From the NCBI RefSeq assembly GCF_004363655.1, contig NZ_SNZH01000013.1, positions 1-64,000 on the forward strand: DNA of 64,000 nucleotides. The letters are read 5' to 3'. This DNA is from Tahibacter aquaticus (GTDB taxonomy: Bacteria; Pseudomonadota; Gammaproteobacteria; Xanthomonadales; Rhodanobacteraceae). The position numbers and the translations under genes were made by a program. This document shows, one piece after another, positions 44,257-46,879 of this stretch (its first letter is position 1; each line of letters begins with the position of its first letter). The notes below the pieces were generated by a model. That model was not told where the DNA came from, searched no databases, and saw nothing but the letters and a program-made list of their open reading frames with translations.

Positions 44257-45738
44257 TTATTGCCGCTGCAGTTCGACCGTGCCGATCACCGGCTTGGCCT
44301 CACTCTTCGGCTCGCCATCGGGCACGATGACCACGCTGGGCGTGTCGCCCAGGGCCTTCTTGCCGCCCAGGCGCTTAAGCTGCGCGGTCACGTCGAAGCT
44401 GTAGAACTTGTCGCCGTCGCCATGCCCTTCGTGATGACCGCCGCCGTCGCCATGGTCCAGCTTCTGCGCGTCGAAGAAGCTGAAGCTGCCGACACGGTTC
44501 TCGTCGGTGACCGACGCTTCCTTGCCCGGCTCGCCGACATAGACGTTGTACAGCACCTCCGGCTGGGCCTGCGCTTCCAGGCCGCGCAGCACCAGGTACA
44601 GGCGCTGGTTTTCGGTCAGCCTGGCTACGGTTTCCTGCAGGGTCGCCGGCTTCGCGCCTTCTTCCGTGCCCTTGGCCAGATCCAGCGCGATCACCACCGG
44701 CGCCGCGGACAATTCCACCCGCTTGGCCGCCTTGGCGGTCAGCGAGGGCTTGGCCTTGGCCGCGACCGCTTCCAAACGCAGCGCCGACTTGGGCTTGGGT
44801 TCCAGCTTCTCGTAGCTGTAGCCCAGCTTGGCGATATCGAAGAAGTCCGACGCCTTGCCCGTGACTGCCGTGCCCTTGGCATCGGCAAAGGTGAACACGG
44901 AATTGCCCCAGGATTCGTTCGGGTTCTTGCCACCGTTGGCATTCCAGCTCGCCCACAGTCGATCGATATTGCAGTGGTGTACCCAGAACACCGGATCGTT
45001 CGCCGCCCAGGGCACCGCGCCCATGTTCTGGCCGGCGCCGGTCAGCACGTGCACATTGCCGTGCAGTACCGAATCGAGCTTGAGGCAGAAGCCCTGCAGC
45101 GCACCGCTGGGGGAATAGGTCGCCTCGCGCAGCGCATCGAGGTTCAAGGCGCCGGGCTTGTTCTTGTCGATCGGCTCGCCGCTGTTGGCCAGGGCGTTGC
45201 GATCCTTCACGAACAAGGCACCGAAGGTGGGATCGCTGCCATTGAGGAACTGCGGCGGCAGCTTGCCGTGGGTGGCGTCGTCGGCAGAATAATTCCAATA
45301 GGGCAAAGTGAAATCATCGCGTTTACTCACCGCACGGATGATTTCCTCGAAGTAGTACACGTACATGCGATGCCAGGGCAGGAACAGGTTTTCATCCTGT
45401 CCGCTGTGCGAACGGCAGGTATTCCACATTGCCGTCGCCAAGGCCTTGTGCGGACTGGAACCGCTGCCGAAGATGCGCGTCAGCTCAGCGCCCTTGTCGG
45501 TGGAACTCTTGACGAAGTGGGTATACCACTGGAATACCCAGTTGCTCGGATCCGTGGCGCCGAGATTCTTCATCGCGGCGACTGCGCCGGCGTAAATCTT
45601 CAGCATTTCCACGCCCTTGGCGCTGCGCACGTCGTAGCGCACGCGCGGCCCGGCCGCACCCAGCCGATTCATCATCCACAGCGAAAACGGAATAGCAGCG
45701 ACGCCGCGCACGAAGTCGCGGCGGGTAAAAGTGGCCAT
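44257..45738 (-). CDS. Tat-exported tyrosinase/polyphenol oxidase with plant-type C-terminal domain
   Basis: The 493-residue protein begins with a twin-arginine signal (TRRDFVRGVAAIPFSLW). Type-3 copper ligands are visible: CuA His74 (WYTHF), His111 (CRSHSGQ) and His123 (FLPWHRMY); CuB His226/His230 (LHGNVH) and His254/255 (DPVFWVHHCNIDRLW). Residues ~375-490 form a PPO1_KFDV-like C-terminal domain (LYLVLRGLEA, VGSFSFFD, YSFDVTAQLKRLGG, SVVIVPDG), normally a plant polyphenol oxidase feature that covers the active site. A His/Gly-rich insert (DHGDGGGHHEGHGDGDK) within it may bind metal. It is 589 bp downstream of the gene at 46328-46879 and could oxidise phenols in the periplasm. Confidence 0.9.
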   Translation of the reverse strand: MATFTRRDFVRGVAAIPFSLWMMNRLGAAGPRVRYDVRSAKGVEMLKIYAGAVAAMKNLGATDPSNWVFQWYTHFVKSSTDKGAELTRIFGSGSSPHKALATAMWNTCRSHSGQDENLFLPWHRMYVYYFEEIIRAVSKRDDFTLPYWNYSADDATHGKLPPQFLNGSDPTFGALFVKDRNALANSGEPIDKNKPGALNLDALREATYSPSGALQGFCLKLDSVLHGNVHVLTGAGQNMGAVPWAANDPVFWVHHCNIDRLWASWNANGGKNPNESWGNSVFTFADAKGTAVTGKASDFFDIAKLGYSYEKLEPKPKSALRLEAVAAKAKPSLTAKAAKRVELSAAPVVIALDLAKGTEEGAKPATLQETVARLTENQRLYLVLRGLEAQAQPEVLYNVYVGEPGKEASVTDENRVGSFSFFDAQKLDHGDGGGHHEGHGDGDKFYSFDVTAQLKRLGGKKALGDTPSVVIVPDGEPKSEAKPVIGTVELQRQ

Positions 45739-46327
45739 GGCGATCTCCCCAAGAGAAAGGCTGCACTAAATACGATACAACGCCACAGGTATACTATGAA
45801 ACATCGATCCCGGCAACAGCAGATTCAGCGGCGCGGGAAGGCATCGACGGCACTGTGGCGCGGTCGGGAAAAAAACGGTCGCCGCAGCGAATCCGGCGCA
45901 AGCTCTGCTGGACCTGGCCCTCCCTCTCGGAGGAAAGCCGGCCCGGCGAGACGGCCAGTGCCGCACGCGGCCGAAGCCACGGCGAGCCCCCCAGGCGCTC
46001 GCCGCGTTCCGTACTGATCCGCCCCCTGAGACGGCTCCGGCCTGCCGTCGCTACAACCCCTAGTGCGGCGACGTCCGCGGCACGGACAGAAGACCGTGCG
46101 GCGACCAGACAAGCCAGGCGCAAATCGGCCGGCCTACCTATCACTGCCCGGTGCACACTCCGCCGGCGCGGCTGCCCGGCCCTGCTTCCCGGCCGATACC
46201 TCCGGCGAAATCCGCCGCATCGCCGTAAAACCTCATGCGGCGAGGCGGCGCCACAGCGCCATGCCGGCACCAGGCAAGGACATGCGGCAGCCGCCGCATC
46301 ATTCAGCAGTAACAGCAGGACAGGACG
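45739..46327. other. Non-coding interval between the tyrosinase and its small neighbour
   Basis: 589 bp of very GC-rich sequence. Long open frames exist on both strands, but they are Arg-rich with no family resemblance, so I see no gene. The first ~40 bp upstream of the tyrosinase start are AT-rich (ACTATG, TATACTATGAAAC on the plus strand) and likely contain its promoter. Confidence 0.5.
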
Positions 46328-46879
46328 CTATTGCAGCACCAGCGAAATTTTCCCGATCTCCACTTGCGTATCTGCTGCGGCCTCTTCGCCGGCGACAACA
46401 CGCAACGACACCGGCCCGTGCCCCAGCAGTTTGCGCAGCGAACCGGTCACCTCGAAGCTGCGCTGCGCCGTCGCGCCTTCCGCATGCGATACGCCATACA
46501 CCGCGAAATCGCCTGCCGCCGCCGCGGCCGGCACTTCATTGCCGCGCGAGCCGGCGCCGAACAGTTCTACCCGCAGCATCGCGCCCGGGTCTTTCACCAC
46601 GCGCAGCCGGTCGATCAGCAGATAGACCTTGCGGCCCGCCCCTTCCTTGTCCAGCCGCGCCGCCAGCGCGGTCGATTCGGCGCTGCTCAGGATCTGTTTC
46701 TCTGCCGCGCGCCGCTTCACCAGCAGCGGCGCCGACACGGTCTTGAGTACCTCGTGCGCCTGCGTTTCCATCGTCGCCTCCACCCCGGCGGACTGAACCG
46801 TTGTCGCCGACCAGGCCGGCAGGGCTGTCACCAGCCCCGCCAGCACTACATACCCCCAGCCCTTCATACACCTACGCAT
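46328..46879 (-). CDS. Small exported protein resembling a free-standing tyrosinase C-terminal domain
   Basis: The 183-residue protein has a Sec signal (GWGYVVLAGLVTALPAWSA). The mature part follows the order of the tyrosinase C-terminal domain next door: a SAP-hydrophobic start, VYLLIDRLRVVKDPG, a GDFAVYGV strand, SFEVTGSLRKLLG and SLRVVAG ending IGKISLVL. The tyrosinase has YLVLRGLEAQAQPE, GSFSFFDA, SFDVTAQLKRLGG, SVVIVPDG and IGTVEL at matching places. The relation is read by eye and not verified. GGGAGAG precedes the ATG at 46879. If right, it may shield or load copper into the tyrosinase in trans. Confidence 0.7.
   Translation of the reverse strand: MRRCMKGWGYVVLAGLVTALPAWSATTVQSAGVEATMETQAHEVLKTVSAPLLVKRRAAEKQILSSAESTALAARLDKEGAGRKVYLLIDRLRVVKDPGAMLRVELFGAGSRGNEVPAAAAAGDFAVYGVSHAEGATAQRSFEVTGSLRKLLGHGPVSLRVVAGEEAAADTQVEIGKISLVLQ

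Follow-up and report, generated by a model that had tools for sequence, protein, structure and literature searches.

A predicted free-standing tyrosinase lid encoded beside a lidded tyrosinase in Tahibacter aquaticus

In the accessible parts of the papers cited here, tyrosinases have their copper site covered either by a fused part of the enzyme or, in Streptomyces, by a separate caddie protein with no match to the family of plant-type lids. Here we describe two adjacent genes of Tahibacter aquaticus, contained in a stretch of 64,000 nucleotides (contig NZ_SNZH01000013.1; the window), one of which encodes a tyrosinase, a copper enzyme that forms pigment, with a fused C-terminal lid and the other a small, predicted exported protein that is a free-standing homologue of that lid. 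The lid of plant polyphenol oxidases (PPO1_KFDV; PF12143) is made within the enzyme and released by cleavage; that of apple MdPPO1 (PDB 6elt and 6elv) is stable as a separate domain, folding independently and remaining bound after cleavage (PMC11608171). Among the bacterial tyrosinases, HcTyr1 of Hahella (8b74) and vsTyr of Verrucomicrobium each have a fused lid with an aromatic placeholder. In HcTyr1 the lid residue Phe397 protrudes towards the copper site, and the enzyme is about tenfold more active once the lid is lost (PMC11609597); in vsTyr, the substitution Phe453Ala raises activity and leaves the copper sites underloaded (PMC10526336). The accessible text of neither paper mentions an adjacent free-standing lid.

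Separate helpers are encoded in two other systems. In Streptomyces, the small protein MelC1 is encoded beside the tyrosinase MelC2; its Tyr98 enters the copper site (PMC6312201, PMC10526336) and undergoes oxidation in it, a step believed to cause the caddie to aggregate and so to free the enzyme (PMC6312201). The PpoB1-PpoB2 operon of Marinomonas likewise consists of two genes, for a tyrosinase and a separate helper in copper transfer (PMC2855505), PpoB2 being a putative transmembrane protein (COG5486, PF09948). Searches of one open-licence library, judged by title or the start of the abstract, gave no report of a free-standing plant-type lid, and nothing on Tahibacter in connection with tyrosinase or on DUF7868, the domain family that proved relevant to this locus.

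The two Tahibacter genes lie in succession on the minus strand of the window, to which all window coordinates given here for features of the pair refer, at 46328-46879 and then 44257-45738. A reading of the window from its sequence alone (the sequence-only reading) had placed both open reading frames there with 589 base pairs (bp) between them, and our coordinates agree. The upstream gene encodes the small protein, of 183 residues, whose N-terminus has a basic start, a hydrophobic core and an end near AWSA, and by eye resembles a signal peptide of the general secretory (Sec) type (46802-46879). The tyrosinase encoded by the downstream gene has 493 residues and comprises a predicted twin-arginine (Tat-type) signal (45652-45738, with the motif TRRDFVRG), a type-3 copper domain and the fused lid; both signals were assigned by reading the sequence.

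That the small protein resembles the C-terminal domain of the tyrosinase had also been suggested from the sequence alone, and comparison of profiles bears this out. Taken by themselves, the two window proteins show a modest resemblance, with a BLASTP E of 0.009 and a local score attained by 1 of 1000 shuffles; with relatives included, it is decisive. When the four free proteins found in the genus were compared as a profile with six fused C-terminal domains, hhalign aligned them over 129 columns with a probability of 97.9% (E 4e-13). The score of 83.8 compares with a mean of 11.8 and a highest value of 19.6 in 200 column shuffles, and with 12.4 for the reversed profile. The free-protein profile also retrieves the fused lids of three genomes (G002, G549 and G653). 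Furthermore, DUF7868 (PF25271) is detected at E<=5 in all four free proteins (best E 1.1e-6); the window copy scores 17.4 bits, under the curated 25-bit cut-off, and in G002 both proteins exceed that cut-off, the free lid with 27.2 bits and the fused lid with 51.7 bits. These profiles show common ancestry, and the small protein is a free-standing homologue of the tyrosinase lid.

The relationship does not extend to the families of the known helpers. The profiles of MelC1 (PF06236) and PpoB2 (PF09948) each match none of the four free lids at E<=5, which sets the free lids apart from the caddie of Streptomyces and from the membrane helper of Marinomonas, and we reject a kinship with either. A search of the eight genomes of the genus with PF06236 was silent, but control genomes were equally silent, so the absence of MelC1 is not demonstrated by it. 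PPO1_KFDV, which the sequence-only reading had put forward as the profile for comparison, matches none of the four free lids at E<=5, and one of five aligned tyrosinases (E 0.0027).

In a tree of the lids, the free forms make up one clade (support 100/99) placed outside the fused lids of the order; an alternative tree that places them next to five Tahibacter fused lids survives the approximately unbiased test (p-AU 0.116).

An AlphaFold2 model built from the four free proteins alone has a predicted local distance difference test score (pLDDT) of 74.8, with residues 1-6 and 13-39 under 50, and its strands (E) and helices (H) follow the order E-E-H-E-E-E-E-H-E-E. The model of the tyrosinase is poor (pLDDT 54.4); its tail repeats this order of elements with one extra short helix. 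When the model of the free protein was searched against the PDB with Foldseek, ranks 1 and 2 went to the isolated C-terminal domain of apple MdPPO1 (6elv, E 3.4e-5; 6elt, E 4.0e-5). Polyphenol oxidases or tyrosinases account for 17 of the 50 matches listed, including the Hahella tyrosinase 8b74. The rmsd values of these matches are high because the jelly-roll fold is common. The free protein is thus modelled with the jelly-roll fold of the lids and resembles the plant lid in this respect; unlike the plant lid, it has a gene of its own, beside an enzyme that retains a fused lid. The sequence-only reading had held that folds failing to superpose would overturn its proposal; the match of the free protein to known lids bears on this indirectly.

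The tyrosinase itself matches PF00264 (E 6.3e-33) and PPO1_DWL (PF12142, E 8.1e-5), and its profile aligns with 8b74 over positions 44 to 491. His74, 111, 123, 226, 230, 254 and 255 are invariant in all five aligned tyrosinases and include the six copper-binding histidines, either His254 or His255 being one of these. The motif in the predicted twin-arginine signal reads SRRDFVRG in three of the four other aligned enzymes and SRRNFVRS in the fourth, and the TAT_signal profile (PF10518) matches one of the five weakly (E 0.029). The fused lid (44257-44721; residues 340-493, limits approximate) was delimited through the lid alignment and through relatives. The C-terminal part of the window enzyme has no Pfam match at E<=5; DUF7868 matches the other four aligned tyrosinases, which are 48-65% identical to the window enzyme. 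In the CuA loop (45370-45417), a C-x-x-H motif is followed by 11 residues before the next histidine, the ligands again being read from the sequence; the H-X8-H spacing given in the accessible part of a review (PMC11608171) is shorter.

The fused lid of the window enzyme also has a His-rich insert (H429, H435, H436 and H439), in which the sequence-only reading had seen a possible metal-sensing site. We reject this idea. Only the first of these histidines is invariant among the five aligned orthologues and the extra ones vary, and the insert is missing from the free lid protein.

The position predicted to plug the copper site is aromatic in every lid aligned. Phe397 of HcTyr1 aligns with Phe422 of the window tyrosinase (codon 44473-44475), the predicted placeholder, or gatekeeper, of the fused lid. 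Among 18 aligned lids, this column holds phenylalanine in all 14 fused lids and tyrosine, phenylalanine, phenylalanine and tyrosine in the four free ones, the residue in the window free lid being Tyr128 (codon 46496-46498). Four residues past the placeholder, His132 (codon 46484-46486) is found in 4/4 free lids and in 11/11 fused lids of the order, and in none of three distant fused lids. Residues 121-145 of the free lids, a segment picked after viewing the alignment, are invariant at 13 of 25 positions, compared with 25 of 117 elsewhere in the domain (Fisher p 0.005). An aromatic residue at the predicted plug position fits a shielding or caddie-like role, and by alignment Tyr128 would take a role matching that of Tyr98 in MelC1.

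The free lid is encoded in four of the eight genus genomes: G000, G001 (a Rhodanobacteraceae metagenome-assembled genome, MAG), G002 (a Lysobacteraceae MAG) and G006 (Tahibacter harae). A survey of pairing had been named by the sequence-only reading as able to overturn its proposal; it found the two genes together in all of the genomes in which this tyrosinase locus is intact, which are these four. In each, the free lid gene immediately precedes the tyrosinase gene in the same orientation, at distances of 589, 102, 260 and 152 bp (G000, G001, G002 and G006, respectively), an adjacency like that of the caddie gene in Streptomyces. Each also has a single tyrosinase as judged with PF00264 at E<=0.001, and the adjacent enzyme is therefore the only obvious partner. 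In G007 neither gene of the pair is present at the locus, and G005 is uninformative because a contig end cuts its tyrosinase. In G003 the flanking genes are present and both the free lid and the tyrosinase gene are absent; between the flanking genes, 28 residues resembling the tail of the tyrosinase lid remain (L091:2169-2252; 50% identity, E 0.009), and therefore the tyrosinase has been lost there, with the free lid gone or never present. The pair's usual flanking glycosyltransferase gene is found in G004 beside a different tyrosinase (L043:5787-7655; PPO1_KFDV E 4.5e-5, below the cut-off), and this site may have housed unlike tyrosinases.

Outside the genus, the free form was not seen in 119 relatives searched with a single sequence, in 299 genomes of the order and 369 of the class searched with the profile, or in 398 genomes of the phylum searched with DUF7868; the profile searches scored the best 9-11 candidates per genome where more existed, and weak members may escape them. 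The free-lid profile matches outside the genus in the order and class searches lie in frames of 526-1248 residues, except for one piece in G018, in a 163-residue frame with two stops. DUF7868 matches over the cut-off outside the genus in the phylum search lie in frames of 500-561 residues.

Our preferred reading, to which we give about an even chance, is that both genes serve one exported tyrosinase as a unit, with the free lid docking in trans, keeping the site closed and the coppers bound. The tyrosinase, already folded and carrying its own lid, would be exported by the Tat route; the small protein would cross by Sec and acquire its fold in the periplasm, giving the enzyme a second lid that belongs to the same family but is not attached to it. 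This lid could dock over the entrance to the copper site, Tyr128 (phenylalanine in two relatives) pointing into the pocket, and replace the fused lid when this is open or cut off. The enzyme would thereby be kept quiet, with its two coppers retained, or acquired, until its activity is required. Most likely the free lid would take over as cover of the site after opening or cleavage of the fused lid; it may also contribute to copper loading. Each protein seems to carry its own export signal, unlike in Streptomyces, where the caddie is described as also serving secretion (PMC11608171). Given a Tat-type start on the enzyme and a Sec-type start on the free lid, the two would therefore meet only in the periplasm, and we infer a role after export. 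The sequence-only reading had envisaged a shield, copper chaperone or assembly factor acting in trans. Of its interpretation, the homology to the lid and the pairing where the locus is intact are supported, and the aromatic residue at the plug position fits a shield; a chaperone acting before export is the part of the proposal that the two different signals speak against.

Several observations weigh against this reading. The enzyme's own lid is apparently intact, complete with Phe422, so that a second lid should in principle be dispensable. The pair is known from one genus only. In G004, a member of this genus, no free lid was found next to a 48% identical tyrosinase that lies at another place in the genome. 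The most conserved stretch of the fused lids lies outside the plug segment, and the placeholder of the free lid was positioned by sequence alignment, not from a complex. The support from Foldseek is modest: at E<=0.001 its nine matches comprise four polyphenol oxidases and five other jelly rolls, namely two chains of a transforming growth factor beta (TGF-beta) complex and three of virus coats.

The alternative that survives best, although we consider it rather unlikely, is that the free lid is mainly a copper-delivery factor and not a shield, binding apo-tyrosinase in the periplasm, passing on copper with His132 near the mouth of the site, and leaving. It would then stand in for PpoB2, a known membrane copper chaperone that other tyrosinase operons encode. 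Two tyrosinases with a fused DUF7868 lid are followed directly, after about 10 bp, by a PpoB2 gene (PF09948; L098:5551-6330 in G226 and L099:4447-5205 in G310), an arrangement like the Marinomonas operon, and therefore a fused lid is compatible with a separate copper helper. Moreover, PpoB2 was not found in six of the eight genus genomes, including three of the four with a free lid (G000, G001 and G006), and His132 is conserved. However, the fourth, G002, has PpoB2 elsewhere in addition to its free lid; His132 is present in the fused lids of the order as well, and hence is not special to the free form; and in the alignment of the free lids, inspected by eye, there is one shared histidine in the loop, no invariant cysteine, and a sole invariant methionine, which is Met1.

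A jelly roll could also have been reused as an anchor or binding module, tethering the enzyme to the envelope or binding polysaccharide, without acting at the copper site. The Foldseek matches listed include lectins and a carbohydrate-binding module, and the folds reported as next in similarity to such lids are those of carbohydrate-binding or carbohydrate-processing proteins (PMC10526336, accessible part). Yet the apple lid occupies the top two PDB ranks, polyphenol oxidases and tyrosinases make up 17 of the 50 matches listed, and the part of the free lids that is most conserved, in a segment chosen post hoc, is the one around the placeholder; we regard this alternative as doubtful.

Slightly less credible still is that the free lid is a functionless relic of a tandem tyrosinase copy, retained by chance after the catalytic domain was lost. 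Tandem tyrosinases do exist in the order, with three carrying fused lids in a row on one strand of G653 (L097:4469-9640), and the free lids diverge faster than the enzymes: in the same three genomes, they are 39-41% identical to the window copy, compared with 62-65% for the tyrosinases. Against decay, the reading frame, the signal-like start, the plug residue and 38 of 142 domain positions are unchanged across four genomes, and the free lids constitute a single well-supported clade.

That the target of the free lid is a different exported protein is improbable: the gaps of 102-589 bp leave room for separate promoters, and pattern scans for promoters and terminators give no case for one transcript, but it adjoins the tyrosinase on the same strand in all four free-lid genomes, in the window and in G001 the two are flanked by one divergent and one convergent gene, and both are absent from the locus in G003.

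As a docking cover in trans, the free lid would resemble the Streptomyces caddie, and differs in that the window enzyme has a fused lid where the tyrosinases of Streptomyces are described as having none (PMC11608171). We infer an outsourced tyrosinase lid that, like the caddie, is made separately, but comes from the plant-type lid family and stands beside an enzyme keeping its own lid. A bolder and rather improbable extension is that the two lids act as a fuse, the fused lid being removed at maturation and Tyr128 of the free lid then plugging the site, becoming oxidised and leaving, in a single-use step that would tie activation to copper and oxygen; taken jointly with this, the caddie strategy would have been invented a second time, from a plant-type lid.

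In the window, the pair is flanked upstream by a divergent gene with an Hpt domain and downstream by a convergent gene with a Yip1 domain. Pattern scans found no sigma-70-like promoter around the pair, and terminators did not exceed chance; nothing usable was found among repeats within and around the intergenic gap. Two of the four free lids were searched against plasmids, with no match.

A second small exported protein is encoded directly downstream of plant-type tyrosinases in three genomes (L043:5157-5636 in G004, L044:6572-7075 in G007 and L100:5672-6097 in G134), at gaps of 151, 127 and 16 bp. The G004 and G007 proteins are 37% identical; that of G134 is 28% identical to the G004 protein and perhaps belongs to another family. 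No Pfam match was obtained for the three below E 0.1. Although lid-like by eye, this protein is not classed as a lid here, with hhalign probabilities of 0.1% and 0.5% against the free and fused lids, and it doubled as a negative control for that comparison. It is possible that it is a further tyrosinase helper. A search for additional members in 369 genomes yielded two weak matches, one of them (L108) antisense to a long unrelated frame.

A natural free plant-type lid beside a lidded enzyme would link two strategies, the fused cover and the caddie. The pair would provide a system for asking whether a lid acts in trans, what the plug residue contributes to copper loading, and how the latency of polyphenol oxidases arises, with a bearing also on browning enzymes and on bacterial phenol oxidation.

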